Below are positions 10,009 to 39,798 of a stretch of DNA of 64,000 nucleotides, piece by piece. The notes beneath the pieces are model-generated. The model had not been told where the DNA came from. It ran no database searches and saw nothing but the letters and a program-made list of their open reading frames with translations. The position numbers were made by a program, and so were the translations under genes. The number at the start of each line of letters is the position of its first letter. The stretch's first letter is position 1. The DNA is from Janibacter sp. A1S7. GTDB lineage: Bacteria; Actinomycetota; Actinomycetes; Actinomycetales; Dermatophilaceae. The stretch is taken from assembly GCF_037198315.1 (NCBI RefSeq), contig NZ_CP144913.1, positions 496,001 through 560,000 of the forward strand, in the 5' to 3' direction.

Positions 10009-10037
10009 TTGAAACTCGATTCAGGTACCTCTAGTCT
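10009..10037 (+). promoter_or_regulatory. Promoter of the lactonase-like gene with TGAA-N6-TTCA operator (site 1)
   Basis: A -35 box TTGAAA (10009-10014) is followed after 17 bases by the -10 box TAGTCT (10032-10037). The near-palindrome TGAAACTCGATTCA at 10010-10023 overlaps the -35 box and spacer, a position suited to repression. The same 14-mer recurs at five other promoters of the island. Confidence 0.65.
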
Positions 10038-10067
10038 CCGAGGACACAACTCGACGAGAGGCTTCAC

Positions 10068-11030
10068 ATGGTGGCCGTACCGACCGTGACCGGGAGCGTT
10101 GACTCCGCCGATCTGGGCCGTGTGCTGGCCCACGAGCACGTCTTCGTGCTCGGGGAGGAGTACCGGCAGAACTACCTGGACGACTGGGACGAGGACACCA
10201 CGGTCGCCGAGGCGGTCGAGGAGCTGGGGGCGCTTCCGTCCCTGGGCATCGACACCATCCTCGACCCCACCGTCCTCGGGCTCGGGCGCTACCTGCCACG
10301 GGTGCAGCGCGTCGCCGAGCAGATCGACCTCAACGTCGTCGTGGCCACCGGTCTGTACACGTACAACGAGATCCCCTTCCAGTTCCACTACAGCGGACCG
10401 GGGTTGCTCTTCGACATGCCGGAACCGCTCACCGAGCTCTTCCTCACGGACCTGCGGGAGGGGATCGCAGGCACCGGTGTGCGCGCCGGTTTCCTCAAGT
10501 GCGCCATCGAGGAGCAGGGTCTCACCCCGGGGGTCGAGCGGGCCATGCGCGCGGTCGGCCAGGCGAGCGCCCAGAGCGGTGCTCCCATCACGGTGCACAC
10601 CAACCCGCACACCGGGTCGGGCCTCGTCACCCAACGCGTGCTTGCGGAGGAGGGCGCCGACCTGTCGAAGGTGGTCATCGGCCACTCCGGCGACACGACG
10701 GACCTCGACTACCTGATGACGGTGGCTGACGCCGGCTCCTACCTCGGCATGGACCGTTTCGGCCTGGACGTGCTGCTGCCCTTCGAGGACCGGGTGGCGA
10801 CCGTGCTGGAGCTGCTGCGGCGGGGCTATGCGGAGAAGATGGTGCTGGCCCACGATGCCGCGTGCTTCATCGACTGGTTCGACCCCGAGGCCAAGCGGCA
10901 GGTCGTGCCCCGGTGGAACGTCCGCCACATCAGTGAGGACGTCATCCCCGCCCTGCTCGAGGGCGGTGCCAGCGAGCAGGACATCGACACGATGCTCGTG
11001 ACCAACCCGAGGGCGTACTTCGAGCGATAA
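10068..11030 (+). CDS. Phosphotriesterase-like (lactonase-type) metal-dependent hydrolase
   Basis: A 320-residue TIM-barrel amidohydrolase of the phosphotriesterase homology family. The metal ligands are all visible: His22 and His24 (AHEHVF), the probable carboxylated bridging Lys144 (GFLKCAIEEQ), His177 (ITVHTN), His206 (IGHSGDT) and Asp263 (LAHDAA). Many members hydrolyse lactones rather than phosphotriesters, so a lactonase role (lactone to hydroxy acid) is a reasonable guess given the acyl-CoA genes that share its operator. The GAGAGG ribosome-binding site is six bases before ATG 10068. It is transcribed alone from a promoter with the shared operator. The exact substrate is unknown. Confidence 0.82.
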   Translation: MVAVPTVTGSVDSADLGRVLAHEHVFVLGEEYRQNYLDDWDEDTTVAEAVEELGALPSLGIDTILDPTVLGLGRYLPRVQRVAEQIDLNVVVATGLYTYNEIPFQFHYSGPGLLFDMPEPLTELFLTDLREGIAGTGVRAGFLKCAIEEQGLTPGVERAMRAVGQASAQSGAPITVHTNPHTGSGLVTQRVLAEEGADLSKVVIGHSGDTTDLDYLMTVADAGSYLGMDRFGLDVLLPFEDRVATVLELLRRGYAEKMVLAHDAACFIDWFDPEAKRQVVPRWNVRHISEDVIPALLEGGASEQDIDTMLVTNPRAYFER

Positions 11031-11060
11031 GTGCGCCCGGGTGGTCGGTGAAGCCATCTG

Positions 11061-11118
11061 TTGACAGGGTTGCGGCGCTTCCATAAGGTCGATGAACTTG
11101 AACTTGAACGCAGGTTCA
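11061..11118 (+). promoter_or_regulatory. Promoter and operator of the liv operon (site 2)
   Basis: TTGACA (11061-11066) and TAAGGT (11084-11089) are separated by 17 bases, a near-consensus primary-sigma promoter. The palindrome TGAACGCAGGTTCA at 11105-11118 lies around +10, directly preceded by a further TTGAAC half-site (11098-11103). A repressor bound here would block the start of transcription. Confidence 0.7.
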
Positions 11119-11143: not shown

Positions 11144-12349
11144 ATGGCTGCAGCATTGTCGAAGCGCGCGATCCGCGGTGTCGCCACCATGGCCAGTGGT
11201 GGCCTGGTGGCCACGTTGGCAGCGTGTGGAGGCTCCGGAGGGGGTGGCTCCGACTCCGACACGATCACCATCGGCTACTCGGCAGGGATCAGCGGGGGGG
11301 CCGCCGAGTACGGCAAGAACGTGCAGAACGGCCTGCAGATGGCCATTGACCAGATCAACGAGAAGGGCGTCGAGGTCGATGGCACGGACTACACCGTCGA
11401 GCTGGAGAGCCTCGACGACCAGTACCAGCCGGGTACGACCGGGACCAACGCGCAGCGCCTCGTCGAGCAGGAGGGCGCCACCGTCGTCTTCGTCCCACAC
11501 GCCGGTGGGATCAAGGCGGCCCAGGAGCTGAACTCGGGGCGCACCGAGTTCCTCATCGGTGCCTACAGCTCCGACCCGGAGATCGTCGAGAGCGGCAATC
11601 CGCTCACGGTGATGATCCCGCCGTCGTTCATCAGCTACGTCGCTCCGTTCATCAGCAAGGTCGACACCCAGGGCAGCGGCAAGCTCGGTCTCCTCTCGAC
11701 CTCGAGCGAGTTCGGCCAGCAGTGGACCGAGGCCATGACGAAGGCGTGGGAGGAGAAGGGTGGCGAGGTCCAGGAGAGCAACAACATCAACTACGCCACG
11801 GTCTCCGACTTCGCCGGCCCCGTCTCGAAGACCTTGTCCGGAGACCCGGACGTGATCCTCGTCGGTGGGCCGTCGCAGCCGACGGCGATCATCATCGAAG
11901 AGGCGCGCAAGCAGGGCTTCAAGGGGTCCTTCATGATCAACGACCAGGCGAAGTTCGAGGACATGGAGGAGTTCACCGATCCCGCGAACCTCAACAACTC
12001 GGTCGGGGTCGCACCCCTGACGGCGTTCGAGGGGACACAGGAGTTCATCTCCTCGTACAAGGAGAAGTACTCCACGGACAAGCCGGTCAACCCGGACATC
12101 GCCCTGAACTACCAGGCGCTGCCGGTCTTCATCAAGGCCATGGAGTCGGCGGGAACCGTCGATGACCCGGCGGCCATCCGTGAGGCCATCAGCGAGAGCA
12201 TCGACACGGTCGATCCCACGTTCCGAGTGGCCTTCTCGCCCGACCGCGTCACCGACGCGGGGCACTTCATCGCGGACGACCTCAAGGCGGGGTACCGCAC
12301 CAAGGACGGGCAGTACGAGACCTTCTCGATCGACCAGCCCAAGGAATGA
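11144..12349 (+). CDS. Liv-type ABC transporter substrate-binding lipoprotein
   Basis: A 401-residue periplasmic-type binding protein (type I fold, branched-chain amino acid receptor family). A basic N-terminus and hydrophobic stretch end in the lipobox LAAC with lipidated Cys28, followed by a glycine/serine-rich linker. The mature domain starts with ITIGYSAGISGGAAEYG, typical of the family. It delivers solute to the LivHM channel encoded next. Ligands of this family include branched amino acids, amides and also small organic and aromatic acids, so the substrate may be a carboxylate matching the neighbouring catabolic genes. The GAGGAG ribosome-binding site supports ATG 11144. Confidence 0.88.
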   Translation: MAAALSKRAIRGVATMASGGLVATLAACGGSGGGGSDSDTITIGYSAGISGGAAEYGKNVQNGLQMAIDQINEKGVEVDGTDYTVELESLDDQYQPGTTGTNAQRLVEQEGATVVFVPHAGGIKAAQELNSGRTEFLIGAYSSDPEIVESGNPLTVMIPPSFISYVAPFISKVDTQGSGKLGLLSTSSEFGQQWTEAMTKAWEEKGGEVQESNNINYATVSDFAGPVSKTLSGDPDVILVGGPSQPTAIIIEEARKQGFKGSFMINDQAKFEDMEEFTDPANLNNSVGVAPLTAFEGTQEFISSYKEKYSTDKPVNPDIALNYQALPVFIKAMESAGTVDDPAAIREAISESIDTVDPTFRVAFSPDRVTDAGHFIADDLKAGYRTKDGQYETFSIDQPKE

Positions 12350-12356
12350 GCGTCGA

Positions 12357-13223
12357 ATGACCCTCTTCCTCCAGCAGCTGGTCAATGGCCTGGCCCTGGG
12401 CGGCATCTACTGCCTGGCCGCCGTCGGGTTGACCCTGGTCTTCGGGGTGCTCGGATTTCCCAACCTGGCCCACGGGGCGATCTTCATGCTCGGCGGGTAC
12501 GTCACGTATTCGCTGCTCGTCGACGGCGGCCTGCCCTACGTGGTCGCGATCCTGTGCGCGGCGCTCATCCTCGCGGTCATCGGGGTGGTCTTCGAGCGGC
12601 TCATCTTCCACCCACTGCGAAAGGCGCCGCACACGCACCACATGATCGCGACGGTCGGGGTGATGTTCTTCCTCATCGCTGTGGTCCAGGAGATCTGGGG
12701 CACGGGGTTCCTGCGCATGGACTCTCCCTTCGCCGGGCGTCTGACCGTCGTGGGAGCCCAGATCTCGTGGCAGCGGATCATCATCATCGTGATTGCCATG
12801 GTCGTGCTGACCGCGCTGACGTGGTTCCTCAAGAAGTCCGTGCACGGCCAGGCGATCGAGGCCGTCGAGCAGGACCGCACGGGTGCCACGCTCGTCGGGA
12901 TCAACCCCAGCGTGGTCTCGATGGTGACCTTTGCGGTGTCCTTCGCGCTGGTGGCCATCTCGGCGGGCCTGGTTGCGCCGATCCAGCTCCTGTCGCCCGC
13001 GATGGGCGAGTCGCTGAACCTGATCGTCTTCGCGATCATCATCCTGGGGGGTCTGGGTTCGCTTCCCGGCGCGATCATCGGGGGGTTCGTCATCGCCATC
13101 GCTGAGGTGATGGCCTCGACGTACATCTCGGTGGCAGCAGGAGAGGCGGCGGTCTTCGTCGTCCTCATGGGCGTCCTCGCGGTCAGGCCGACGGGACTGT
13201 TCGGAACGGTGGAACAGCGATGA
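12357..13223 (+). CDS. livH: Branched-chain amino acid-type ABC permease LivH
   Basis: A 288-residue inner-membrane permease with about eight hydrophobic helices. It contains the family segments QQLVNGLALGGIYCLAAVGL at the N-terminus and FAIIILGGLGSLPGAIIGG near the C-terminus. It pairs with LivM to form the transmembrane channel. I chose ATG 12357 because it begins the first helix; the longer frame from 12162 lies inside the binding-protein gene. It starts seven bases after the binding-protein stop and overlaps livM. Confidence 0.9.
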   Translation: MTLFLQQLVNGLALGGIYCLAAVGLTLVFGVLGFPNLAHGAIFMLGGYVTYSLLVDGGLPYVVAILCAALILAVIGVVFERLIFHPLRKAPHTHHMIATVGVMFFLIAVVQEIWGTGFLRMDSPFAGRLTVVGAQISWQRIIIIVIAMVVLTALTWFLKKSVHGQAIEAVEQDRTGATLVGINPSVVSMVTFAVSFALVAISAGLVAPIQLLSPAMGESLNLIVFAIIILGGLGSLPGAIIGGFVIAIAEVMASTYISVAAGEAAVFVVLMGVLAVRPTGLFGTVEQR

Positions 13224-14251
13224 TGGAGAAGATCAACCCGCGTCTGCTCGGTGTCGCCCTCATCGTGATCGCGCTTGTGGCGGCGCCTCTCGTCCTCAAC
13301 GGCCAGCCCTACCTGATCCGCGTGGTCACGACGGCGACGATCTACGCGATCGCCGCCTACGGGATGAACATCATCCTGGGCCTGACCGGTCAGCTGTCCT
13401 TGGCGCACGGGGCGTTCTTCGGGGTCGGCGCCTACGTCGTGGGACTGCTGACGACCGACTACGACTGGTCCTTCTGGGGCTCCTTCCTGCTCGCGATCGT
13501 CATCACCACGGTCCTCGGCTACGCCTCCGGCCTGATCGCGCTACGGACCCAGGGGGCGTACTTCGCGATCTTCACGATGGCCCTCGGCTTCCTCATCTTC
13601 ATCGTCATCACCCGCTGGGAGTCGGTGACGCACGCTCACTCGGGCGTCAGCGGGGTGAAGTTCCCGGAGAACATCGGGCCCATCGACTTCACGCAACCGA
13701 CGACGATGTACTACTTCGTGCTGCTCATCCTGGGCGGCGCCGCGTACACCACCCACGCGCTGCTGCGGTCCAACGCTGGCCGGTCCCTGGTGGCCATCCG
13801 CACGTCCGAGGACCTCGCCAAGTCCATCGGCGTCAACGTCGCCGTCAGCAAGCAGCTCGCCTTCACCGCGTCAGCAGGTACGGCCGGTCTGGCGGGTGGG
13901 TTGTTCGCATCCCTGACCGGCTTCATCGGTCCCGACTCGGCGGCCATCGATGTCACCTTCGAGTTCCTGCTCTTCCTGCTCATCGGTGGCATGGGGACGG
14001 TCATGGGACCGATCATCGGGAGCCTGCTCGTGGCCTTCCTCTTCGAGGCGCTGCAGGATCTGCAGTCCTACCGGTTCATCGTCCTGGGGCCGATCATCGT
14101 CCTGCTGGTCATCTTCGCGCCGAAGGGGATCGTCGGCTACCTCAACGACCTGATCCCCTCTCACCGCGGGCGGCGGCGGGCTGCACGGCGACCGGAGACC
14201 TCCGACGACGAGACACCAGAAGCCCGGAAGACGAATGAGGAGGTGCGCTGA
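13220..14251 (+). CDS. livM: Branched-chain amino acid-type ABC permease LivM
   Basis: A 343-residue permease with eight to ten hydrophobic helices and the family motif YGMNIILGLTGQLSLAHGAF. A cytoplasmic coupling segment with GRSLVAIRTSEDLAKSIGVN contacts the ATPases. The C-terminus ends in an arginine-rich and acidic tail (from about 305) longer than in enterobacterial LivM. The start overlaps the livH stop (ATGATG). It forms the importer channel with LivH. Confidence 0.9.
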   Translation: MMEKINPRLLGVALIVIALVAAPLVLNGQPYLIRVVTTATIYAIAAYGMNIILGLTGQLSLAHGAFFGVGAYVVGLLTTDYDWSFWGSFLLAIVITTVLGYASGLIALRTQGAYFAIFTMALGFLIFIVITRWESVTHAHSGVSGVKFPENIGPIDFTQPTTMYYFVLLILGGAAYTTHALLRSNAGRSLVAIRTSEDLAKSIGVNVAVSKQLAFTASAGTAGLAGGLFASLTGFIGPDSAAIDVTFEFLLFLLIGGMGTVMGPIIGSLLVAFLFEALQDLQSYRFIVLGPIIVLLVIFAPKGIVGYLNDLIPSHRGRRRAARRPETSDDETPEARKTNEEVR

Positions 14252-15030
14252 TGCTGCTCCAGGTACGCGACCTCAGCAAGACGTTCGGTGGTCTCGACGC
14301 GGTCAAGGGCGTCGACCTCGACGTCCCGGAGGGGCAGGTCACGGCCATCATCGGACCGAACGGTGCCGGCAAGTCGACCCTGTTCAACCTGCTCGCGGGC
14401 TTCTACAGACCGACATCCGGGACCGTGACCTTCGACGGAGCGGACATCACCGGACAGAAGCCCCACCGGACGGTCCGTGCAGGGATCGCCCGGACCTTCC
14501 AGACGACGCACCTCTTCGATGGCGCCACCGTGCTCGAGAACGTCCTGGCCGCCTGTGTCGTACGGGGTCGGTCCAATCCCCTGGACGCAGTGCTGCACAC
14601 ACCGCGGTACCGCCGTGACGAGAAGGCGAACCACGAGAAGTCGATGGAGGAACTGGACTTCGTGGGCGCCGCCCACCTGCGCGACGAACTCGCCTCGACT
14701 CTCCCGCAGGAGACACAGAAGCGCATCTCGATCGCCCTGGCCCTGGCCACCGAGCCGCGGCTGCTGCTCCTGGACGAGCCGGCTGCCGGGACGACCGACG
14801 AGGAGACCGAGTCCTTCGGCGATCTCATCCGGCAGATCGTCGCGCGTGGGATCTCGGTCTGCCTCGTCGAGCACAAGATGTCCATGGTGATGAACTTGGC
14901 CGACCAGATCGTCGTCCTCGACCACGGCCAGCGCATCGCCCTGGGTAGCCCGGAGGAGATCAAGAGGGACCCGCTCGTCATCGAGGCGTACCTCGGGGTC
15001 GATACGAGAACGACAGGAGCGCCATCATGA
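14251..15030 (+). CDS. livG: ABC transporter ATP-binding protein LivG
   Basis: A 259-residue ATPase. Walker A GPNGAGKST is at 35-43, the family Q-loop follows near 84 (RTFQTTHLF), Walker B LLLLDEP is at 171-177, and the switch histidine is in LVEHKM. The signature motif is odd: where LivG proteins normally have an LPYGxQ or LSGGQ type sequence, this one reads LPQETQ (151-156), with no glycine. One of the two nucleotide sites of the LivGF dimer may therefore be weak or inactive. It overlaps livM by one base and livF by ATGATG. Confidence 0.88.
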   Translation: MLLQVRDLSKTFGGLDAVKGVDLDVPEGQVTAIIGPNGAGKSTLFNLLAGFYRPTSGTVTFDGADITGQKPHRTVRAGIARTFQTTHLFDGATVLENVLAACVVRGRSNPLDAVLHTPRYRRDEKANHEKSMEELDFVGAAHLRDELASTLPQETQKRISIALALATEPRLLLLDEPAAGTTDEETESFGDLIRQIVARGISVCLVEHKMSMVMNLADQIVVLDHGQRIALGSPEEIKRDPLVIEAYLGVDTRTTGAPS

Positions 15031-15734
15031 TGACCATCACCGGACTCAGTGCCGGCTACGGCGCGGGCAACGTCCTGCACTCCGTCGACGTCACTGCCCC
15101 GACGGGTGAGTTGACGGTCGTCCTCGGGTCGAACGGAGCGGGCAAGTCGACGCTCTTTCGCGCCGTCAGTGGAGTGCTCCGACCGTCCGGTGGGCGAGTC
15201 GACTTCGCGGGTGAGGACACCACGAGGAGCAGCACGGCTGCGCTGGTGCGCAAGGGACTGGCGCACTGCCCCGAAGGGCGGCACCTCTTCCCGCGCATGT
15301 CGGTGGAGAAGAACCTCGTGCTGGGGGCGTACACCGGCCGCCGGCACAAGGACCGCGTCCGAACCCTCTTGGACCGGACCTACGAATTGTTCCCGGTGCT
15401 CAAGGACAAGCGGACCCAGTCGGCCGGGTCCCTGTCGGGGGGGCAGCAGCAGATGGCGGCCATCGGCCGCGCCCTGATGTCCGACCCGAGGATGTTGATC
15501 CTCGACGAGCCGTCCATGGGGTTGGCACCCCTGATCACACAGCAGGTCTTCGATGCCATCGTCGGGATCAACAAGGAGGGCATCGGCGTGTTGCTGGCCG
15601 AGCAGAATGCGACCTCTGCCCTGCGAATCGCCTCGTCGGGCTATGTCATGGCCGAAGGGCGGATCGTCCTGTCCGGCGCCGCCGCAGTCCTCGCGGGGGA
15701 CCCGGCCGTGCAGCAGGCATACCTCGGGGTCTAG
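15027..15734 (+). CDS. livF: ABC transporter ATP-binding protein LivF
   Basis: A 235-residue ATPase with Walker A GSNGAGKST (34-42), a canonical LSGGQ signature (136-140), Walker B MLILDEP (about 157-163) and the switch region LLAEQN. The AEQN form, with glutamine where most ABC proteins have histidine, is usual in LivF. It completes the importer started at 11144. Its TAG stop lies within the TCTAGT target site of an IS481-family element, so the insertion left the protein intact but separated the operon from whatever followed. Confidence 0.9.
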   Translation: MMTITGLSAGYGAGNVLHSVDVTAPTGELTVVLGSNGAGKSTLFRAVSGVLRPSGGRVDFAGEDTTRSSTAALVRKGLAHCPEGRHLFPRMSVEKNLVLGAYTGRRHKDRVRTLLDRTYELFPVLKDKRTQSAGSLSGGQQQMAAIGRALMSDPRMLILDEPSMGLAPLITQQVFDAIVGINKEGIGVLLAEQNATSALRIASSGYVMAEGRIVLSGAAAVLAGDPAVQQAYLGV

Positions 15735-16880: not shown

Positions 16881-17702
16881 TCAGCGGCCGAAGACGGGTG
16901 GACGCTTCTCCACGAAGGCGCGCGCCGCCTCGACGTGATCGGCGGACAGGCCGCACTCCTTGTGCCGCGGAACCTCGGCGGCCATGGACTCGGACAGCGT
17001 CTGCTGCGGTGCCTCGAGCAGGTTGCGCTTGATGTGGGCCAGCGCGAGGGTCGGGCCGTCGGCGAGTCGGCGGGCCAGGACACGGGTCTGCTCGACCAGC
17101 TCGTCCTCGGCCACCAGTCGGTTCAGCAGCCCCAGGTCCAGGCTGGCCTGACCGTCCAGACGTGGGTTGAGCATGAGCAGCTCGCGGGCCTTGGCCGGGC
17201 CGACGAGGTGGGTCAGGAGCCAGGCGACGCCGTAGTCGCCGGAGAGCGCCACGGCTGCGAAGGCAGTGGCCACGACCGTGCGCGGCGTCCCGATGCGCAG
17301 GTCCGCGGCCAGCGCGAGACCCAGACCGGCGCCGGCTGCGGCTCCGGGGAGGGAGGCGATGACCGGTTTCGGGAACCGGTGGATCCGGGCAACGGTCTCC
17401 TCCTGGTTCTGCAGCTGCTCGGCCACGGCGACCGGGTCGACCTCGGTGGCCCCGCCCCCTTCGCCGCCCTGCTCGTCGAAGTCCCTGACGTCACCGCCGG
17501 CACAGAACGCGCGGCCGGCGCCGGTGAGGACGAGCGCGCGGACCGCAGGGTCCTGCTCGGCCTGCTCCAGGAAACGGCTCAGCCCCTCGAGCATGGGCCG
17601 GGACATGGCGTTGCGGCGGTCGGGGCGGTTGAGGGTGATCGTGGCGACGCCCTCGGTGACGTCGTACAGGACGTGGTCGGCGGCGGTGGACGGGTCACTC
17701 AT
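16881..17702 (-). CDS. Enoyl-CoA hydratase/isomerase family protein
   Basis: A 273-residue crotonase-fold enzyme. The substrate pocket motif GRAFCAGGDVRDFDEQ (about 63-78) and the oxyanion-hole region PGAAAGAGLGLALAADL (about 119-135) are present. The catalytic loop reads SGDYGVAWLL, with Asp where hydratases usually have Glu; this resembles isomerase-type members, so the reaction may be double-bond isomerisation or hydration. The start overlaps the end of the MFS gene by eight bases, making a two-gene leftward operon. It belongs to the unit that starts at the shared-operator promoter near 19080. Confidence 0.82.
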   Translation of the reverse strand: MSDPSTAADHVLYDVTEGVATITLNRPDRRNAMSRPMLEGLSRFLEQAEQDPAVRALVLTGAGRAFCAGGDVRDFDEQGGEGGGATEVDPVAVAEQLQNQEETVARIHRFPKPVIASLPGAAAGAGLGLALAADLRIGTPRTVVATAFAAVALSGDYGVAWLLTHLVGPAKARELLMLNPRLDGQASLDLGLLNRLVAEDELVEQTRVLARRLADGPTLALAHIKRNLLEAPQQTLSESMAAEVPRHKECGLSADHVEAARAFVEKRPPVFGR

Positions 17703-19069: not shown

Positions 19070-19098
19070 TTGAATCTGAATCAGAGTTCAAGTATACC
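19070..19098. promoter_or_regulatory. Divergent control region with operator site 3
   Basis: The operator TGAATCAGAGTTCA at 19077-19090 lies between the leftward MFS unit and the rightward HAD unit. A further TTGAAT half-site precedes it. For the rightward genes, TTGAAT (19070-19075) and TATACC (19093-19098) are 17 bases apart. The leftward -35 would be TTGAAC (complement of 19086-19091), but I see no good leftward -10 box. Confidence 0.62.
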
Positions 19099-19820: not shown

Positions 19821-19855
19821 CGTCACCCGACGTCTGCACAGATAGGACGGCCACC

Positions 19856-21079: not shown

Positions 21080-21102
21080 GTGGTCGAGACGAGGGAGAAG
21101 CG

Positions 21103-24835: not shown

Positions 24836-24859
24836 CCACCACTGACCGAAGGACGATTC

Positions 24860-30086: not shown

Positions 30087-30101
30087 TCGAGAGGAGCGAC
30101 C

Positions 30102-31319
30102 ATGGACTTCGCACTGGATGCCAGGACCATCGAGCTGCGCGAGCGGCTCACCGCCTTCATGGACGAGCACATCTACCCCATCGAGCCCACCTACTGGGAG
30201 CAGCTCGAGGCCCAGCCCGGCCGGTGGTCGCCGCCCCCCGTCATCGAGCCGGCCAAGCGGGCCGCCCGTGACCGGGGGTTGTGGAACCTCTTCCACCCGG
30301 GTGAGGAGGGCGCCGGTCTGACCAATCTGCAGTACGCCCCGCTGTGCGAGGTGCTCGGTCGCAGCCTGCACATCGCCCCCGTCGCCACGAACTGCGCTGC
30401 GCCGGACACGGGCAACATGGAGGTGCTCAGCATGTTCGGCACCCCCGAGCAGAAGGCGCAGTGGTTGCAGCCACTGCTCGAGGGACGGATCCGCTCCGCC
30501 TTCGCCATGACGGAGCCCCACGTGGCCAGCTCCGACGCGACCAACATCGAGACGTCGATCGTGCGGGACGGTGACGAGTACGTCATCAACGGCCGCAAGT
30601 GGTACATCTCCGGCGCGATGAATCCCGAGGCCACGGTGCTGATCGTCATGGGCAAGACCGACCCCTCGGCCGACCGGCACCAGCAGCAGTCGATGGTCCT
30701 CGTCCCCCGCGACACCCCGGGAGTGGACATCCGTCGGGGGATGAAGGTCTTCGGTTACGACGACCGGGACCACGGCGGACACGCCGAGATCGACTTCGTG
30801 GACGTCCGGGTGCCCGTCAGCAACCTCATCGGCGAGGAAGGCGGTGGCTTCGCCATCGCGCAGGCCAGACTCGGCCCGGGGCGGATCCACCACTGCATGC
30901 GCCTGATCGGCATCGCCGAGCGCTCCCTGGAGCTGATGGTCGAGCGAGCTGCGAGCCGGGTCGCCTTCGGCAGGCCACTGTCCGACCAGGGCGTGATCCG
31001 CGACTGGATCGCGGAGTCCCGGGTGCGGATCGAGCAGCTGCGCCTGCTCACCTTCAAGGCGGCCTGGCTGATGGACACCGTCGGCAACAAGGGCGCCCAC
31101 ACCGAGATCCAGGCGATCAAGATCGCGGCGCCCAGCACCGTCGAGTGGATCGTCGACAAGGCCGTGCAGGTGCACGGCGCGGGAGGCCTGAGCCAGGACT
31201 TCCCGGTCGCCGAGTGGTACGCCCAGGTGCGCACTCTCCGCTTTGCGGACGGCCCCGACGAGGTGCACAAGAACGCCCTCGCCCGCCACGAGATCCGGAG
31301 GATGAGCACCCGTGGTTGA
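30102..31319 (+). CDS. Acyl-CoA dehydrogenase, ACAD10/11-like (second paralogue)
   Basis: A 405-residue flavoenzyme closely resembling the protein at 19856: both share AFMDEH, LWNLFHP, [35 protein letters not shown] and ADGPDEVHK. It probably acts on a related substrate or chain length. It has a GAGAGG ribosome-binding site and lies 15 bases after the synthetase gene. The start of the next dehydrogenase gene overlaps its end by eight bases. Unlike the first copy it has no kinase gene directly beside it, but the APH gene at 21103 shares the regulon. Confidence 0.88.
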
Positions 31320-32481
31320 TCTACAGCAGCGGCTGGACCAGTTCCTCGCCGAGCACGACCCGACCACCACGGGGGCCCGTGAGTTCCTCGGTGCGCAGCA
31401 CGACGCCGGCCTCGCCTGGGTCCATTTCCCCGACGGGCTGGGCGGCCTGGGTCTCTCCCGCGGACGCCAGGCCGAGGTCGACGAGCGACTCGAGGCCGTG
31501 GGGGCGCCGCGACCGGACGTCGGCCGCAACTCGATCGGTCTGGGCATGGCGGCACCGACGATGCTGGCCTTCGGTACGCCGGAGATGCAGCGACGTCACC
31601 TGCGGCCGATCTTCGCCTGCACCGAGATCTGGTGCCAGCTCTTCAGCGAGCCGGGGGCCGGCTCCGACCTTGCCGCCGTCGCCACCCGTGCGGTGCCCGA
31701 CGGGGACGAGTGGGTGGTCGACGGGCAGAAGGTGTGGACCTCGGGTGCCCACAACGCCGACTTCGCGATCCTCGTGGCCCGCACCGACTCATCCGTCCCC
31801 AAGCACGCGGGCCTGACCTACTTCATCGTCGACATGACCGACCCCGGGATCGAGATCCGCCCCCTTCGCCAGATCACCGGCGAGGCCGAGTTCAACGAGG
31901 TCTTCCTCTCCGGGGTGCGGGTCCCCGACCGGAACCGGGTCGGTGCCGTCGGCGAGGGCTGGAAGGTCGCGACGACCACCCTGAACAACGAGCGGGTCGC
32001 CATCGGTGCCGGCAACGACCGCGAGGCCGGCCAGATCGGCCCGGTCACCGAACGCTGGCGTCGCGATCCCTCGGTGCGCACCCCCGGCAACCACGCCGAG
32101 CTCATGCAGTGGTGGGTCCGCACGGAGGTGACCCGGCTGGCCGGCGAGCGACTGCGCCAGGGCCTGGCGGTCGGTCAGCCCGGCCCAGAGAGCTCGGCCA
32201 TGAAACTCGCGTTCGCCCAGCAAGCGCAGCAGGTCAGCGGGTTCGCCCTCGAGCTCGCTCCGGAGGAGGGGTTGACCTACCACGACTGGAGCATGGTCCG
32301 GCCCGAGACGGGGTCCTTCCTCGGCCACGGCCCCGGCTTCCGCTACCTGCGCGCGAAGGGCAACTCCATCGAGGGCGGGACCAGCGAGATCATGCGCAAC
32401 ATCATCGCCGAGCGCGTGCTCGGTCTGCCCCCGGAACACCGCCCCGACAAGGGCATTGCCTTCAAGGACGTGCCACGATGA
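31312..32481 (+). CDS. Acyl-CoA dehydrogenase, alpha-type subunit of a probable heteromeric pair
   Basis: A 389-residue dehydrogenase with the middle-domain motif [28 protein letters not shown] and the C-terminal [23 protein letters not shown]. It is directly coupled (ATGA) to a second, divergent dehydrogenase gene. Adjacent unequal ACAD genes of this kind, as in actinobacterial steroid side-chain breakdown (ChsE4-ChsE5 type), form heterotetramers that share active sites. I infer the same here. The start is GTG 31312, inside the end of the previous gene. Confidence 0.85.
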
Positions 32482-33548
32482 CCGACCTGCTCTACACCGA
32501 CATCGAGGAGTCGCTGCGCTCCAGCGTCCGATCCTCACTCCAACGGTCCCTCGATGACGGGCTCGCCGCCCGGCTCTACGACGAACCCGACACCGATGTC
32601 GGTCCCCTCTGGCGTGGCCTGGCCGAACAGCTCGGTCTGGCCGGACTGCTCGTCCCCGAGCGCCTCGGCGGCTCCGGTGCGGGCCCGCGCGAGGCCGCTG
32701 TGGTCCTCGAGGAGCTCGGCCGCAGCGTCGCGCCCGTGCCGTTCCTCACCAGCGCGGTCATCGCCACGTCCGCGCTGCTGTCCGCGGGCGACGAGGAGTT
32801 CCTGCCGGTCCTGTCCGCCGGCGAACGGACCGCGGTCCTGGTCCTGCCGTGGACCGCGCGCCGGGGTGCCTGGGCAGCCGTCGACGGCGCCGTCGGGCCG
32901 GTCGCCGGTGCAGTGGGCGCTGACCTCTTCCTCGTGCCGGAGCAGGGCGAAGGGGGCGTGACCTCCCTTCGTGCGTACGAGGCCGATGACGTGGAGGTCG
33001 AGCCGATCACCTCGCTCGACATGACCCGGCCGCTGGCCCGAGTGGCCACCCGCGGCCAGGGCGCCGAGGTCGCCCGCGGGGCACCGGCCGAGGCCGCGGT
33101 CGACGCCGCGCTCGGCGCGGGACAGGCGTTGCTGGCGTCCGAGCAGCTCGGTCTGGCCCAGTGGTGCCTGGAGACGACGGTCGAGTACGCGAAGACCCGC
33201 GTGCAGTTCGCCCGGCCCGTCGGTTCCTTCCAGGCGATCAAGCACCGCCTGGCCGACCTCTACCTGCTGCTGGTCAACACCCAGGCTGCCGCTCGGTACG
33301 CCGCCGGGACCCTTGCCGACGACGATCCCGATCAGCAGGTGGCCCAGTCGCTGGCGCAGTCCTTCTGCAGCGACGCCGCCGTGCACGCGGCCGAGGAGGC
33401 CCTCCAGCTGCACGGCGGGATCGGCATGACGTGGGAGCACCCGGTGCACACCCGTCTCAAGCGCGCCAAGTCCGACCAGCTGGCGCTCGGGACACCGGAG
33501 CGGCACCGGGACGACCTCGCGGACCTGGTCGACCTCCCGGCGCCCTGA
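32478..33548 (+). CDS. Acyl-CoA dehydrogenase, beta-type subunit of a probable heteromeric pair
   Basis: A 356-residue dehydrogenase, more diverged than its neighbour. N-terminal and middle domains are weakly conserved: the usual TEP..GSD motif is missing. The C-terminal domain keeps [21 protein letters not shown] and [23 protein letters not shown]. This pattern suits a partner subunit with an incomplete flavin or active site. The ATG overlaps the preceding stop as ATGA. The longer frame from 31632 lies inside the alpha gene and is spurious. Confidence 0.85.
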
Positions 33549-33591
33549 CCGACAGAATCGACACACCCCCGTCCCACCCCAAGGAGTAACC

Positions 33592-34788
33592 ATGCGCGAA
33601 GCAGTCATCGTCTCCACCGCCCGCACCCCGATCGGACGCGCCTACCGCGGCGCCTTCAACGACACCCAGGCCCAGGAACTCATCGGCCACGCGGTCCGTC
33701 ACGCCGTCGAACGATCCGGCGTCGAGGGCGGCCAGATCGAGGACGTCATCGTCGGCGCCGCCCTCCAGCAGGGCTCGACCGCGGCGAACATCGGCCGACA
33801 GGCCGCGCTGCGCGCCGGGCTGCCCACCTCGGTCGCCGGCATGTCGGTCGACCGGCAGTGCGCGAGCGGACTCATGGCGATCGCGACGGCAGCCAAGCAG
33901 GTCGTCCTCGACGGCCAGCAGGTCGCCGTCGGCGGCGGCGTCGAGTCGATCTCGCTCGTGCAGAACGAGCACATGAACACCTACCGGGCGCAGGACCCCT
34001 GGCTCGTGGAGCACGTGCCCGCGACCTACATGTCGATGCTCGAGACCGCGGAGGTGGTCGCGAGGCGCTACGGGGTCTCGCGCGAGGCCCAGGACGAGTA
34101 CGCCCTGGAGTCGCAGCGTCGCACCGCAGCCGCGCAGGAGGCGGGTGCCTTCGACGACGAGATCGTGGCGCTGCCGACGACGAAGCTGACCAAGGACAAG
34201 ACCACCGGCGAGGTCGGCTCGGAGCAGGTCACGCTCACCCGGGACGAGGGCAACCGCCCGGGGACGGCGATCGAGGGTCTGGCCGGGCTCAACCCGGTGC
34301 TGGCCAAGGACGGCACCGAGGGGTTCACGATCACGGCCGGTAACGCCTCCCAGCTCTCCGACGGCGCCTCCGCCGCCGTGGTCATGGAGGCCGAGGAGGC
34401 CTCGCGTCGTGGCCTCACCCCGCTCGGAGCCTTCCGCGGGATGGCCGTCGCCGGGGTGGAGCCCGACGAGATGGGCATCGGCCCGGTCGTCGCGGTACCC
34501 AAGCTGCTGAAGCAGCACGGCCTGACCGTCGAGGACATCGACCTGTGGGAACTCAACGAGGCCTTCGCCGTGCAGACGCTCTACTGCCGTGACCACCTGG
34601 GCATCGACCCGGCGAAGTACAACGTCAACGGCGGCGCCATCTCCATCGGTCACCCCTACGGCATGAGCGGTGCGCGCATGGCCGGTCACCTCCTCATCGA
34701 GGGCAGGCGCCGCGGCGCGCGCTACGGCGTGGTGACCATGTGCGTCGGCGGTGGCATGGGCGCCGCCGGTCTCTTCGAGATCTTCTGA
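33592..34788 (+). CDS. Acetyl-CoA acyltransferase (thiolase)
   Basis: A 398-residue thiolase. The nucleophile is Cys90 in DRQCASG, the histidine is in [16 protein letters not shown], and the second catalytic cysteine is in [12 protein letters not shown]. It cleaves 3-oxoacyl-CoA to acetyl-CoA and a shortened acyl-CoA, the last step of beta-oxidation. It has its own AAGGAG ribosome-binding site and lies 44 bases after the dehydrogenase pair, probably in the same transcript. No fused hydratase/dehydrogenase gene follows; those steps may be done by the MaoC and SDR proteins nearby. Confidence 0.9.
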
Positions 34789-34834
34789 GCCATCCGCGCC
34801 GCCGCACGCCACGATCACCCGAGGAGCCACACCC

Positions 34835-37800
34835 GTGTCCGTCTACGTCGCCAACCGTGGAGAGATCGCCGTCCGGCTCGTCCGGGCCGCCCTGGAGGCG
34901 GGGCACGAGGCCGTCGTGGCCGTGACCCGCGCGGAGACGGACTCGCTCGCCGCCCGCTTGGCGACGGCGGTGCACGTCCTGCCCGGTGAGGGCGCGGCCG
35001 CGTACCTCGATGCGCAGGCGCTCGTCGCCGGCGCCACCGAGCACGGGTGCACGATGCTGCATCCCGGTTACGGGTTCCTCAGCGAGAGCCCGGTACTGGC
35101 CCGGGCGTGCGCGGAGGCCGGTGTGACCTTCGTCGGGCCCGACGCCGAGTTGCTGGAGCTCTTCGGTGACAAGGGGCGGGCGCGGGCAGCGACGGCTGAA
35201 GCCGGGGTGCCGGTGTTGCCGGCCACCCCGGTCGGGGTCACCGAGGAGGAGGCGGCCGCGTTCGCAGCGAGCCACCATCCGGCGGGCGTGATGATCAAGG
35301 CGGCCGCGGGTGGCGGTGGGCGCGGGATGCGCCCGGTCCCCGCCGGTGAGTCCCTGACGCTGGCCTGGCAGCGCGCCGGCTCGGAGGCCGAGCGCAGCTT
35401 CGGCTCCGCAGACCTCTTCGTCGAGCTCTACGTCGAGCGCGCCCGCCACATCGAGGTCCAGGTCGCGGCCGACGGCGAAGGGGGAGTGGTCCACCTCGGT
35501 GAGCGGGACTGCTCCCTCCAGCGCCGCTTCCAGAAGGTCGTCGAAGTGGCGCCGGCGCCCGGGCTGCCCGGGGCGGTCCGCACTGCTCTGCACGACGCGG
35601 CCGTGCGGCTCATCGCGGGCCGTGGCTACTGCGGGCTGGCGACCGTCGAGTTCCTCGTCGATGCGGACGACCCGAGTCGCTGGTGGTTCATCGAGGTCAA
35701 CCCGCGCCTGCAGGTCGAGCACCCGGTGACCGAGTGCGTCACGGGAGTCGACCTCGTCCTGGCCCAGCTGCGACTCGCCTCGGGCGAGACCCTCGGGGAC
35801 CTCGGTCTCGGTGCACCCCCGTCGATCAACGGGTCGGCGGTCGAGCTGCGGGTGGCCGCTGAGCGGATCGGCACGAGCGGCGAGGCGCTGCCGGCCCACG
35901 GCGTCGTCGGCAGACTCTCCCTGCCCGCCGGTCCGGGCGTGCGCGTCGACACCCACCTCGTCGAGGGGACCCGGGTGGACGGTGCCTTCGACTCCCTGGT
36001 GGCCAAGCTCGTCACGCACGGTCATGGCGGATTCACCGGTGCGCTCCGCAAGGCACGGCAGGCCGTCGTCGAGTGCGAGGTCCGCGGGATCGCGACCAAC
36101 CTGCCCCTGCTGCACGAGGTGCTCGAGCACGACGATGTCGCGACGTGGGCGGTGACGACGCAGTGGCTCGGGCAGGCCGGCCTTGCCCACGCCGCGCCGA
36201 GTGGCGTCGGCGTCGAGGGCGAGGTCCTCGCCGAGATGGCCGGGACGGTCGTCACCGTCCTGGTGGAGGAGGGACAGGCGGTCAACGCCGGGGATCCGCT
36301 CGTCGTCCTCGAGGCGATGAAGATGGAGCACCTCCTGCCCGCACCTGCCTCCGGTGTGGTGACGGCCGTGCGGGCACGTCCCGGTGCGAGCACCGTGCCC
36401 GACGACCTGCTCGTCCGGCTCCGCCCCTCCTCGCGCCAGTCGGGCGCCGCGGAGGCGGAGAGCGGGCCCGACCTCGACGCCGAGCGCGCCGACCTCACCC
36501 GGCTGCGGCAGCGACGCGAACGCCGGTTGGACGAGGCACGCCCGGAGTCGGTCGCCAAGCGCCACGGGCGCGGGCAGCGGACCGCGCGGGAGAACGTCGC
36601 CGATCTCGTCGACGAGGGCAGCTTCGTCGAGTACGGCGGCCTCGCGGTCGCGGCCCAACGGGCGCGACGGAGCGAGGAGGACCTCATCGCGAGCACGCCT
36701 GCGGACGGGATCGTCACCGGGATCGGCCGGGTCACCGCGTCCACGACCGCTCAGGACACCCGCTGTGCGGTGCTGGCCTATGACTACACCGTCCTCGCCG
36801 GCACGCAGGGCTACCTCAACCACAAGAAGACCGACCGTCTCCTCGAGATCGCCGAGCAGCAGCGCCTACCCGTCGTCCTCTTCGCCGAGGGAGGTGGCGG
36901 CCGCCCGGGAGACACCGACACGACCGTGGCCAGTGGGCTGGACGTGCCCACCTTCGCCACGATGGGTCGTCTCAGCGGTCTCGTCCCGACGATCGGCATC
37001 GCCGCAGGACGGTGCTTCGCCGGCAACGCCGCCCTCCTGGGCTGCTGCGACGTCATCATCGCCACCCGTGACTCGACGATCGGCATGGGTGGTCCGGCGA
37101 TGATCGAGGGCGGCGGACTGGGCGACTTCGCCCCCGAGGAGGTCGGGCCGATCGAGGTGCAGGGCAGCAACGGCGTCGTGGACGTGGTGGTGCGTGACGA
37201 GGCCGAGGCGGTCGCCGTGGCCCAGCAGTATCTCGGGTACTTCCAGGGCGGGCGCGAGGAGTGGACCGCGGCCGACCAACGGGCGCTGCGCCACATCGTC
37301 CCGGAGAACCGGGTCCGGGCCTACGACGTGCGAGCGGCGATCACCGCGCTGGCGGACGAGGGCTCGGTCCTCGAGCTGCGCGCCGGCTTCGCCCCGGGGG
37401 TCATCACCGCGCTCGTGCGCATCGAGGGACGGCCGATGGGGCTCGTGGCCAACAACCCGCGCCACCTCGGCGGTGCGATCGACGCCCCGGCCGCGGACAA
37501 GCTCGCCCGCTTCCTCCAGCTGTGCGACGCACACGGCCTGCCGGTTCTCTCCCTGTGTGACACACCGGGCTTCATGGTCGGACCGGACCACGAGCGGACC
37601 GCCACGGTGCGCCACTTCGCGCGGCTCTTCGTCATCGGTGCCCACCTGCGGGTGCCGATCGTCACCGTCGTCCTGCGCAAGGCCTATGGCCTCGGCGCGC
37701 AGGCGATGGCGGCGGGCAGCTTCCGGCGGCCGGCGGCAACCCTCGCCTGGCCCACGGGTGAGGTGGGTGGGATGGGCCTCGAGGGGGCGGTGCGCCTCGG

Positions 37801-38023
37801 CTTCCGACGTGAGCTCGACGCGGTCGCCGACCCGGTCGAGCGCCGCGCCCTGGAGCAACGACTCCTCGCGGACCTGTACGAGCGAGGACGGGCGGTCAAC
37901 GCCGCGGCCGTCGTCGAGCTCGATGACGTGATCGACCCCGTGGACACCCGGCAGTGGGTCCTCACCGCGATGTCGTCATCGGGCCCGCGAGACGTGCCGA
38001 CGCGGTACGTCGACACCTGGTGA
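34835..38023 (+). CDS. Single-chain biotin-dependent acyl-CoA carboxylase (long-chain acyl-CoA carboxylase-like)
   Basis: A 1,062-residue fusion. Residues about 1-440 are biotin carboxylase (VANRGEIAVRLVRAA, AAAGGGGRGM, FIEVNPRLQVEHPVTE). Residues about 455-525 are the biotin carrier domain, with the biotinylated Lys496 in EAMKMEH. From about 560 to the end are the two carboxyltransferase halves (LFAEGGGGRPGD, CDTPGFMVGPDHE, KAYGLGAQAMAAG). Most actinobacterial carboxylases split these over two or more subunits; the single-chain layout matches the long-chain acyl-CoA carboxylase described in mycobacteria, which accepts a wide range of acyl-CoAs. GTG 34835 with a GAGGAG ribosome-binding site is the start. 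It may carboxylate propionyl-CoA or another pathway product. Confidence 0.88.
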   Translation: MSVYVANRGEIAVRLVRAALEAGHEAVVAVTRAETDSLAARLATAVHVLPGEGAAAYLDAQALVAGATEHGCTMLHPGYGFLSESPVLARACAEAGVTFVGPDAELLELFGDKGRARAATAEAGVPVLPATPVGVTEEEAAAFAASHHPAGVMIKAAAGGGGRGMRPVPAGESLTLAWQRAGSEAERSFGSADLFVELYVERARHIEVQVAADGEGGVVHLGERDCSLQRRFQKVVEVAPAPGLPGAVRTALHDAAVRLIAGRGYCGLATVEFLVDADDPSRWWFIEVNPRLQVEHPVTECVTGVDLVLAQLRLASGETLGDLGLGAPPSINGSAVELRVAAERIGTSGEALPAHGVVGRLSLPAGPGVRVDTHLVEGTRVDGAFDSLVAKLVTHGHGGFTGALRKARQAVVECEVRGIATNLPLLHEVLEHDDVATWAVTTQWLGQAGLAHAAPSGVGVEGEVLAEMAGTVVTVLVEEGQAVNAGDPLVVLEAMKMEHLLPAPASGVVTAVRARPGASTVPDDLLVRLRPSSRQSGAAEAESGPDLDAERADLTRLRQRRERRLDEARPESVAKRHGRGQRTARENVADLVDEGSFVEYGGLAVAAQRARRSEEDLIASTPADGIVTGIGRVTASTTAQDTRCAVLAYDYTVLAGTQGYLNHKKTDRLLEIAEQQRLPVVLFAEGGGGRPGDTDTTVASGLDVPTFATMGRLSGLVPTIGIAAGRCFAGNAALLGCCDVIIATRDSTIGMGGPAMIEGGGLGDFAPEEVGPIEVQGSNGVVDVVVRDEAEAVAVAQQYLGYFQGGREEWTAADQRALRHIVPENRVRAYDVRAAITALADEGSVLELRAGFAPGVITALVRIEGRPMGLVANNPRHLGGAIDAPAADKLARFLQLCDAHGLPVLSLCDTPGFMVGPDHERTATVRHFARLFVIGAHLRVPIVTVVLRKAYGLGAQAMAAGSFRRPAATLAWPTGEVGGMGLEGAVRLGFRRELDAVADPVERRALEQRLLADLYERGRAVNAAAVVELDDVIDPVDTRQWVLTAMSSSGPRDVPTRYVDTW

Positions 38024-38037
38024 CCAAGGAGCGAGCA

Positions 38038-39711
38038 GTGAACCACACCCAGCACCTCGAGGACATCCGTCGTCGGCAGGATCGGGTCCGCCCCGCGGGC
38101 ACGCCCCGCGATGTCGTCCACCCTCTGGGAGACCTCACCGTCCCGGAGTACGTCGACGCCTGGGCGCAGCGGCGGCCGGAGCGCGCGGCCGTGGTCCATG
38201 ACGACCTCGTCATCGACTACCGGGACCTCGCCGACCGGCACGCCCGGTGGGCCGGCTGGCTGCGGGCGAAGGGGGTGGCGCCCGGCGAGCGCGTCGGCGT
38301 GCACCTGGGCAACGTCCCCGAGTTCGTCGTCGCCTTCCTCGGCACGCTACGGGCCGGTTGCGTCCACGTGCCGGTGAACCCGATGTTCCGGCACACGGAG
38401 CTCGTCCACGAGCTCGACGACTCCGGGGCGAGCGTCGTCCTGACGAGCGCCGCCCTTGCGCAACGGCTCTGCGACGCCGCGGCTGAGGCGCAGGTGCGCA
38501 CGGTCGTGGTCCTCGCCGGGGAGGGAGACCCCCTTCCCTGCGTCGACGGTGTCGAGGTGGTGCGCTGGGCCGACACCGCGGCCGCGCAACCGCTGCGCGA
38601 ACCGGCGCGCGACCTCGACGCGCTCGCCGCCCTCAACTACACGGGCGGGACGACGGGCCTGCCCAAGGGGTGCGAACACACCCAGCGGCACATGGTCTAC
38701 ACGGCGGTGAGTGCCTCGGGAGCCAACGGTCTGGACGGCGCCGACGTCGTCTCGCTGTGCTTCATCCCCGTCTTCTGGATCGCGGGGGAGGACCTGGGCG
38801 TCCTCATCCCGCTCGTCATGGGTGGGACGACGGTACTGCTCGAGCGGTGGGACGCGGCCACGGTCGTCGACCTCGTCGAGCGCCATCGGGTGACGACGAC
38901 CGCCGCCACCGTGGAGAGCTATCTCGACATCCTCGAGGTGCCGGGGGTCGGCGAGCGTGACCTCGACTCCTTCACCGCGCCCATGGCGATGTCCTTCATC
39001 CGCAAGCTCACCCCCGAGATCCGTCGACGGTGGTCGCAGGTGGTCGGCCCGGGCTCGGTGCTGCGGGAGGGGTCCTACGGCATGACCGAGAGCCACACCG
39101 TGGACGTCGTCCCGTACGGCTTGCACGAGGGAGACCACGACCTGCTCAGCGAACCGGTCTTCTGCGGGTTGCCCGTGCCCGGCACGGACGTGGTCGTCGT
39201 CGACCCGGTGACCGCGGAGCCGATGGCCTTCGGCGAGTCAGGGGAGATCCTCCTGCGCAGTCCCTCGGTGATGACCGGCTACTGGCGCAATCCCGCAGCG
39301 ACCGCAGAGCAGCTGCGTGACGGATGGCTGCACACGGGTGACACCGGTTACCTCGACGAGGACGGCTGCCTGCACTACCTCGCCCGGACCAAGGACATGA
39401 TCAAGGTGAACGGCATGAGCGTCTTCCCCGCCGAGGTGGAGATGATGCTCGCCAGCCACCCGGAAGTCGCCTCGGTGGCCGTGGTGCCCGCCGACGACGC
39501 GGTCACCGGGCAGCGGCCGGTCGCCTTCGTCAGTCTGCGTGACGGCTCGTCGGCCACCGCGGACGTGCTCCAGGAGTGGGCGGGCGGGGAGATGGCCGGC
39601 TACAAGGTCCCGCTCGTCGAGGTGCTCGCGCACTTCCCGCTCACCGACACCGGGAAGATCCGCAAGCCGGAGCTCCTCGGACGCGCGGAGGAACTCGCCG
39701 CCCGCTCCTGA
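38038..39711 (+). CDS. AMP-dependent synthetase / acyl-CoA ligase
   Basis: A 557-residue ANL-superfamily ligase. Motifs are LNYTGGTTGLPKG, REGSYGMTESH, the hinge ARTKDMIKVNGMSVFP, and the catalytic lysine region TDTGKIRKPEL. It differs clearly from the synthetase at 28566 and may activate a different acid. The start is GTG 38038, preceded by AAGGAGCG; the longer upstream frame lies in the carboxylase gene. It is 14 bases after the carboxylase, in the same operon. Confidence 0.86.
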   Translation: MNHTQHLEDIRRRQDRVRPAGTPRDVVHPLGDLTVPEYVDAWAQRRPERAAVVHDDLVIDYRDLADRHARWAGWLRAKGVAPGERVGVHLGNVPEFVVAFLGTLRAGCVHVPVNPMFRHTELVHELDDSGASVVLTSAALAQRLCDAAAEAQVRTVVVLAGEGDPLPCVDGVEVVRWADTAAAQPLREPARDLDALAALNYTGGTTGLPKGCEHTQRHMVYTAVSASGANGLDGADVVSLCFIPVFWIAGEDLGVLIPLVMGGTTVLLERWDAATVVDLVERHRVTTTAATVESYLDILEVPGVGERDLDSFTAPMAMSFIRKLTPEIRRRWSQVVGPGSVLREGSYGMTESHTVDVVPYGLHEGDHDLLSEPVFCGLPVPGTDVVVVDPVTAEPMAFGESGEILLRSPSVMTGYWRNPAATAEQLRDGWLHTGDTGYLDEDGCLHYLARTKDMIKVNGMSVFPAEVEMMLASHPEVASVAVVPADDAVTGQRPVAFVSLRDGSSATADVLQEWAGGEMAGYKVPLVEVLAHFPLTDTGKIRKPELLGRAEELAARS

Positions 39712-39750
39712 GGGCCCGACTCCCGTCGTCCCACCGGCGTCTGATGACGC

Positions 39751-39798
39751 TTGACACGGGAGTTGACTCATCTCAATATGAACTCGAATTACCATTCA
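39751..39798 (+). promoter_or_regulatory. Promoter of the ACS-family MFS gene with operator site 6
   Basis: TTGACA (39751-39756) and CAATAT (39774-39779) are 17 bases apart. The operator copy CGAATTACCATTCA at 39785-39798 begins near +1; its first base departs from the TGAA consensus. A TAGGAGA ribosome-binding site and the ATG at 39813 follow. Confidence 0.62.

Follow-up and report, generated by a model that had tools for sequence, protein, structure and literature searches.

A TGAA-N6-TTCA operator shared by six promoters of a Janibacter acyl-CoA catabolic cluster, and its probable TetR-type repressor

We describe a predicted regulon in a 64-kb stretch of the Janibacter sp. A1S7 genome (contig NZ_CP144913.1, positions 496,001 to 560,000), hereafter the window, in whose own coordinates all positions are given. 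Six promoter regions of the window share the palindrome TGAA-N6-TTCA, and these six sites very probably form one regulon under a single TetR-type repressor. From comparison of sequences, we consider it highly likely that the TetR-family protein encoded at 22142-22837 is this repressor, that it is autoregulated, and that it acts at the six promoters, on approximately 27 genes, in the manner proposed below. The comparisons argue for a real and well-conserved regulon, of a kind that is already known.

Operator sites and promoters in the window

The six operator sequences that an earlier note on this DNA had reported are present at 10010, 11105, 19077, 23747, 26912 and 39785. As that note had also described, three of them (19077, 23747, 26912) lie between divergent genes; the remaining three separate genes that run in the same direction. 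The consensus is about tTGAAtCnnGnTTCAa, and the sites are arranged as follows.

Site 1, 10009..10037, plus strand: operator 10010-10023; -35 box TTGAAA overlapping the left arm, -10 box TAGTCT 17 bp on; before the phosphotriesterase (PTE)-family gene
Site 2, 11061..11118, plus strand: -35 box TTGACA, -10 box TAAGGT, third half-site TTGAA 11098-11102, operator 11105-11118; before the Liv-type ABC transporter operon
Site 3, 19070..19098, plus strand: TTGAAT (-35), operator 19077-19090, TATACC (-10); divergent, HAD-ACAD-kinase-tetR versus MFS-enoyl-CoA hydratase
Site 4, 23733..23783, no strand assigned: operator 23747-23760, weaker copy 23770-23783; minus-strand promoter with -35 box 23756-23761 (right arm) and -10 box TACGGT 23733-23738
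Site 5, 26898..26933, no strand assigned: operator 26912-26925 within two overlapping divergent promoters, plus TTGAAC-N17-TATGGT and minus TTGAAC-N17-TAGGTT
Site 6, 39785..39798, plus strand: weaker operator CGAATTACCATTCA, with an ATGAA half-site at the same offset; upstream of an MFS transporter gene

Exact matches to TGAA-N6-TTCA number five in the window against 0.08 expected (sd 0.31), which is far beyond chance; at least five were reached in 0/100 shuffles. With one mismatch allowed there are ten matches against 4.0 expected, namely the five exact sites together with 39785, 23770, 5473, 24847 and 44161. By our own gene models, those at 5473 and 44161 lie inside genes. The match at 24847 takes up a 24-bp intergenic gap, and its final base is the start of the next gene; it carries 2-4 mismatches in the eight relatives checked, is probably due to chance, and was rejected as an operator. 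The weaker second copy at 23770, by comparison with what had been noted before, stands: it is kept 23 bp on, with one mismatch, in the window and in 5/5 relatives checked, all of which have one exact copy, and two exact copies 21-23 bp apart are found at other Janibacter and Dietzia loci. The weakest of the six sites is 39785. The orthologous gene was fetched from five relatives; at this place two of them have the same CGAA-N6-TTCA and three have exact sites.

A symmetric matrix was built from 73 unique 16-mers taken from actinobacterial sites, those of the window among them, so the scores of the window sites are not independent. Its six highest scores in the window are those of the six sites (24.2 to 14.0), followed by 23770 (9.9). 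Of 20 shuffled windows, 19 had a best score of 4.4-12.5 and one reached 19.2, which leaves site 6 (14.0) insecure by score alone.

Promoter boxes of the form TTGANN-N17-TANNNT occur six times in the window, counting both strands, and five of these occurrences are at regulon promoters; the same boxes occur at none of the spacings 14, 15, 16, 18 and 19, and once at 20. At site 1, and on the minus strands of sites 4 and 5, an arm of the dyad serves as the -35 box; for the plus-strand promoter of site 5 the extra TTGAA does so, and site 3 is a near fit, with TTGAAT-N17-TATACC. When related sites are grouped, both directions fit the rule in 17/17 members of the site-5 group, the plus direction in 10/10 of the SDR3 group (mostly Gordonia), and the site 1 layout in 7/9 of the PTE group. 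The SDR1 direction fits in 15/27 rows, tandem dyads being counted twice. In the counts for the site-3 group, and for the site-2 group below, identical sequences were merged and those of fewer than 119 bases excluded. Of the 15 members of the site-3 group, 14 have TTGAA and one has TTGTA, followed 17 bp on by TATACC, TATACA or TATATC.

The earlier note had described an extra TTGAA half-site at equal offset at sites 2, 3 and 5. The equal offset is confirmed, and the description as a half-site holds at site 2, where the element is a conserved third half-site, and gives way at sites 3 and 5 to that of a -35 box. In the site-2 group, 6/7 members have a separate TTGAC-N17-TAnnnT promoter upstream (in the seventh, the 45-base margin seems to have truncated it). 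The operator comes after the -10 box, and TTGAA is nonetheless kept in 7/7, the window included. Because it is kept there with a separate promoter upstream, this TTGAA looks like a true half-site, and for site 2 we have withdrawn the reading of the extra TTGAA as a -35 box only. It lies 6 bp out of register with the dyad and, by analogy with QacR, CprB and Sulfolobus FadR, could be used by a second dimer.

Across the whole genome (3.36 Mb, a single contig) the exact core is found 13 times, five of them in the cluster, versus 3 for the reversed pattern, and a consensus search with one mismatch gives 16 plus-strand places versus 3 for its control. The eight exact cores outside the cluster comprise four inside genes and four outside (one in a stretch without a gene call), again by our own gene models. 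None of the eight has the extended motif TTGAANNTGAAN6TTCA, and we have not accepted them as members of the regulon. Two intergenic sites (L001 and L011, position 1501), TGAACTCATGTTCA and TGAAGTCATGTTCA, are more like each other than like the regulon; the former, in L001, adjoins a gene that looks TetR-like by eye.

The TetR protein and its operators in other genomes

The protein encoded at 22142-22837 belongs to the TetR family by its TetR_N domain (PF00440; E 1.4e-8, 34.9 bits against a cut-off of 24), and it matches EthR_C (PF21313) weakly, with 30.4 bits against a cut-off of 27. It falls outside the ScbR/gamma-butyrolactone receptor equivalog NF041196, scoring 58.3 bits against a cut-off of 150. 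The closest named match is from Janibacter melonis (83%). A record titled Microtetraspora glauca (L034), a distant genus, encodes a TetR protein 81% identical to that of the window, which may reflect either horizontal transfer or a mislabelled record. The gene is the last in the operon behind site 3 and is hence probably autoregulated. As expected of FadR-like TetR repressors, operators are found at several promoters of the acyl-CoA catabolic cluster, that of the protein's own operon included.

In related loci, the operator stands mostly at the same gene boundaries, before HAD, PTE, SDR2/MaoC, SDR1/MDR1, LivK and the last MFS gene, and 26 of the 42 actinobacterial loci L033-L074 contain the exact core. 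Seven extended-motif sites are remote from tetR or on a different contig (G003:C34, G009, G010:C7, G011:C3, G013, G015:C326 and G015:C474). Five of these stretches were fetched, all but G003:C34 and G015:C474, and the LivK (ABC transporter) operon lies directly behind the distant site in 5/5. In the window this operon lies between the PTE and enoyl-CoA hydratase genes, next to an IS481 transposase, and in a Dietzia locus (L035) it lies right behind tetR. The operon is thus differently placed and still has the operator, which therefore appears to travel with it. The retention of sites at orthologous promoters and the distant LivK operons with their operator uphold the earlier proposal of one shared operator and one regulon.

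Motif and gene also occur together across genomes. Among 39 genomes (the window's own, G000, included), 19 have the TetR protein at 1e-20 and 16 have the extended motif; 16/16 motif genomes have TetR, and 0/20 TetR-less genomes have the motif (Fisher 2.6e-8). A survey of 394 genomes of the class, in which up to 7 TetR candidates were scored per genome and the cut of E<=1e-45 was chosen before the result was seen, found 23 with the motif, 23 with TetR, and 11 with both against 1.3 expected (23 x 23 / 394; p=1.7e-9, or 1.4e-8 without G000). In all 11, a site lies at most 12.2 kb from a TetR gene.

Far more distant homologues point the same way. In 18 loci (L094-L111), mostly from sphingomonads, with homologues 26-52% identical over parts of the protein, the best matrix match lies upstream of the tetR match in 18/18; none of these sites was used in training, and several of the loci are near-identical. 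Exact cores stand 42-174 bp before the tetR match in 17/18, where 0.56 would be expected in the 18 loci together. In one sphingomonad-type locus (L103, 9624-9727) the operator is placed between tetR and a divergent TonB-dependent receptor gene. The suggestion in the earlier note that the 22142-22837 protein is the regulator is supported by this co-occurrence of sites and gene and by the operators upstream of distant tetR homologues.

The operator changes with the protein. In L075-L093, whose TetR proteins are 34-42% identical, TGAC-N6-GTCA replaces TGAA-N6-TTCA in 16/19 loci, approximately 70-140 bp upstream of the tetR match. Over the 79 loci L033-L111, tabulated with one TetR per locus (the covariation listing otherwise kept all copies), TGAA-N6-TTCA is present in 40/43 loci with Ser67 versus 4/36 with Thr67, and TGAC-N6-GTCA in 15/18 loci with His65 versus 1/61 without it; kinship within each group inflates these counts, and the search was lopsided, the former motif being sought anywhere in the fetched locus and the latter only within 250 bp upstream of tetR. 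When the proteins are thinned to less than 90% identity, the figures are 25/27 for Ser67 and 3/19 for Thr67, and 6/9 for His65 and 1/37 for the others. Ser67 together with the TGAA operator is common to the sphingomonad-type and the Janibacter proteins, which come from distant organisms. Counted on a profile alignment, residues 65, 67, 69 and 70 align with Tyr47, Leu49, Tyr51 and Phe52 of Sulfolobus FadR, which are described as contacting bases (PMC6449355). A rule of Ser or Thr at 67 alone is not clean, four of 36 Thr67 loci keeping TGAA-N6-TTCA and three of 43 Ser67 loci being without it, and was set aside. Two Rhodococcus loci (L049, L074) have a pair of TetR paralogues and contain hybrid palindromes, TGAC-N6-TTCA or TGAA-N6-GTCA, which look like an operator in the course of change.

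We put forward tentatively, as possible rather than probable, a wider proposal in two parts: that a specificity code spans two phyla, with Ser67 and Ile, Leu, Thr or Ala at 65 reading TGAA-N6-TTCA and His65/Thr67 reading TGAC-N6-GTCA, and that the repressor of the Janibacter group senses a 4-hydroxyacyl-CoA or lactone and so would be the sensor of an ACAD10/11-type pathway.

Proposed mechanism and alternatives

We propose that the TetR protein binds TGAA-N6-TTCA at the six promoters, its own included, and represses about 27 genes. At several promoters, an operator arm or the extra TTGAA would double as the -35 box of a promoter whose -10 box is 17 bp away, so that binding of the repressor and of RNA polymerase would be mutually exclusive. 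A single operator at site 5 would shut two overlapping divergent promoters. The third half-site at some operators (TTGAA, 6 bp out of register) would fit a second dimer, and site 4 carries a second dyad 23 bp on. By precedent, a pathway intermediate, most likely an acyl-CoA, would release the repressor.

Several observations weigh against this model. Exact sites are missing in near relatives before MDR1 (L131), PTE (L043 and L124) and HAD (L038); in 16 of the 42 actinobacterial loci, where TetR identity is 54-63%, the fetched stretch contains no exact core; and the relatives do not count as statistically independent. Genome-wide, enrichment of the core alone is only modest. Loci were gathered partly by the recognition-helix peptide FYTWFDSK, which biases them toward similar DNA reading, the DNA itself being unselected. 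Boxes of the exact form TTGANN-N17-TANNNT are absent from sites 3 and 6 and from the MDR1 (site 4) and MFS2 (site 3) directions. Three of the 39 genomes have TetR without the extended motif: G002 has the core only, with TTGTA instead of TTGAA, and G025 and G030 have TetR proteins 34-37% identical. In the class survey, TetR at 1e-45 is absent from 12/23 genomes with the extended motif (six of these being small genomes of one family, f40, in which the reversed control also matches), and the extended motif is absent from 12/23 genomes with TetR. Such discordance would be natural if another regulator, encoded elsewhere, bound the shared operators and the TetR gene merely travelled with the cluster. 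We regard this as unlikely, since the TetR protein has the sole regulator domain among the 30 scanned proteins, besides the IS481 transposase, since the operator persists upstream of tetR itself in the sphingomonad-type loci, although little of the catabolic cluster was found in the stretches fetched there, and since the letters of the operator covary with recognition-helix residues of this very TetR.

It is also conceivable that the TetR protein binds the same sites and activates, as acyl-sensing TetR-family activators are on record (FasR). The operators, however, overlie the spacer between the -35 and -10 boxes or the -35 box itself, or sit just past the -10 box, which are the places of a blocking repressor, and make activation very improbable. 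The use of TTGAA as a -35 box at several sites could further mean that the motif is mainly promoter sequence, in which boxes at fixed spacing mimic a palindrome and there is no single regulon. This account has scant likelihood in our view, because at site 2 and its six orthologues the dyad and half-site lie downstream of the separate promoter (6/7), because the sphingomonad-type sites lie, by eye, next to or past a -10-like box, and because the right arm, TTCA, is conserved too.

Cluster genes, predicted pathway and known systems

Genes were modelled by codon usage, and 30 cluster and flanking proteins were scanned against Pfam, which, with structure-database matches where indicated, gives the following assignments.

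10068..11030, plus: PTE-family hydrolase, putatively lactonase-like (PF02126 5.6e-90; PDB 4if2 5.2e-116, 2vc5 5e-78)
11144..15734, plus: branched-chain (Liv)-type ABC transporter, 5 genes
16881..19053, minus: MFS transporter and enoyl-CoA hydratase, divergent from site 3
19140..22131, plus: HAD hydrolase, ACAD11-type acyl-CoA dehydrogenase and APH-family kinase (Pfam and structure-database matches)
22142..22837, plus: TetR-family regulator, 231 aa, proposed repressor (TetR_N 1.4e-8, EthR_C 5.3e-7); last gene of the operon behind site 3
22912..23688, minus: short-chain dehydrogenase SDR1
23834..26316, plus: two zinc-type dehydrogenases/reductases and a 4HBT thioesterase
26395..26865, minus: MaoC-like hydratase
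26969..39711, plus: nine genes, namely two SDR, an acyl-CoA ligase, three acyl-CoA dehydrogenases, a thiolase, a biotin-dependent carboxylase and an acyl-CoA ligase
39840..41165, plus: MFS transporter behind site 6

Taking every co-directional run as a single operon, as gene spacing suggests, gives 27 genes behind the six sites, against about 25 in the earlier note. An IS481-family transposase gene (15843-16817) adjoins the ABC-transporter operon, which is located away from tetR in several other Janibacter genomes; insertion of the operon into the cluster is possible. IS481-like matches are also seen between the kinase gene and tetR in L121/L122 (G005). ARAGORN calls a tRNA-Pro at 31708-31785, inside an acyl-CoA dehydrogenase gene, where Rfam reports none, and the call is probably false.

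The assignment to uptake and acyl-CoA metabolism made earlier fits these genes and may be narrowed to a route of the 4-hydroxy-acid or lactone type. The dehydrogenase at 19856 matches ACAD11 (8v3u, 4.9e-133), as does that at 30102-31319 (2.8e-134), and the APH-family kinase matches the kinase part of ACAD11 8v3v (1.1e-33). An ACAD11-type dehydrogenase thus adjoins an APH-family kinase, as in the ACAD10/ACAD11 (Lva-type) route. The PTE-family protein is close to 2vc5, which we take to be a lactonase; it does not reach three NCBIfam equivalog cut-offs, one of them for a lactonase. ACAD10 is described as combining a HAD domain, a kinase and a dehydrogenase, with bacterial counterparts LvaA and LvaC that handle 4-hydroxyacyl-CoA (PMC11342911), and the parts of ACAD10 lie side by side in the cluster as HAD, kinase and dehydrogenase genes. 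Given ACAD11-type, kinase, HAD and lactonase-like genes together, a 4-hydroxy acid or its lactone is therefore our best guess for the substrate. Judging from gene content, such a compound would be taken up, activated with CoA and phosphorylated by the kinase; the ACAD11-type dehydrogenase would remove the phosphate, and beta-oxidation would follow. A plasmid search found no record covering 80% of 19000-27000; five records match part of it, and the four annotated there are all annotated as acyl-CoA dehydrogenase.

These data provide a candidate regulator, operators, promoters and about 27 targets for the Janibacter and Dietzia catabolic cluster, together with a likely substrate class. In addition, the homologues form a natural series: as two residues at base-contacting positions vary, so do letters of the operator. 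The repressor would be a candidate sensor for 4-hydroxy acids or lactones, and the proposed double role of an operator arm as a -35 box is open to direct measurement. We found no description of this regulon in the open-access literature, most subscription journals lying outside that scope, and the TGAA-N6-TTCA operator does not appear in the accessible portions of the literature on EdcR, MftR, BkaR, the Stenotrophomonas PsrA-like regulator, Rhodococcus AlkU and Streptomyces fadAB.

Among the TetR matches listed, none is named BkaR or Rv3574, the latter presumably KstR. Both are described as mycobacterial TetR repressors that bind a palindrome at several promoters of acyl-CoA catabolic genes (PMC3920632 for BkaR; PMC1995591 for Rv3574), as we propose here, whereas the operator of BkaR is a different one, with the core GTTA(N)T(N4)A(N)TAAC (PMC3920632). 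The proposed use of the third half-site is modelled on QacR and CprB, in which two dimers are described on overlapping sites (PMC4150764); their ligands and targets differ from those here, where a double dimer is suggested by analogy. The Lva pathway of Pseudomonas putida and mammalian ACAD10/ACAD11 likewise pair a kinase with an acyl-CoA dehydrogenase for 4-hydroxyacyl-CoA, the HAD domain being found in ACAD10 (PMC11342911), whereas the cluster, known from its genes, has three separate genes and a TetR gene in the same run.

Profile matches of the TetR protein include 3whb, 'Fatty acid metabolism regulator protein' (4.2e-14), and 5gp9 (4.3e-17), presumably a FadR. The Bacillus FadR operator is TGAATGAnnnnTCATTCA, in which the outer half-sites are similar and TGAA and TTCA lie 10 bp apart, as against 6 here. 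The best PDB profile match is 6el2/6en8 (8.5e-24), which we take to be FadR of Sulfolobus acidocaldarius, with which the residue numbers fit. Bacillus TetR-type FadR is described as an acyl-CoA-dependent regulator of beta-oxidation (PMC6449355). Sulfolobus FadR is the nearest worked-out system for this regulon: according to the same source, it binds a 16-bp dyad, represses a 30-kb, 23-gene lipase and beta-oxidation cluster, binds its own control region, occupies one operator as one dimer and another as two, the second on one side, and is released by acyl-CoA (PMC6449355). Whereas the promoters there are archaeal, here an operator arm coincides with a bacterial -35 box, and the predicted regulon includes transport and ACAD11-type genes.

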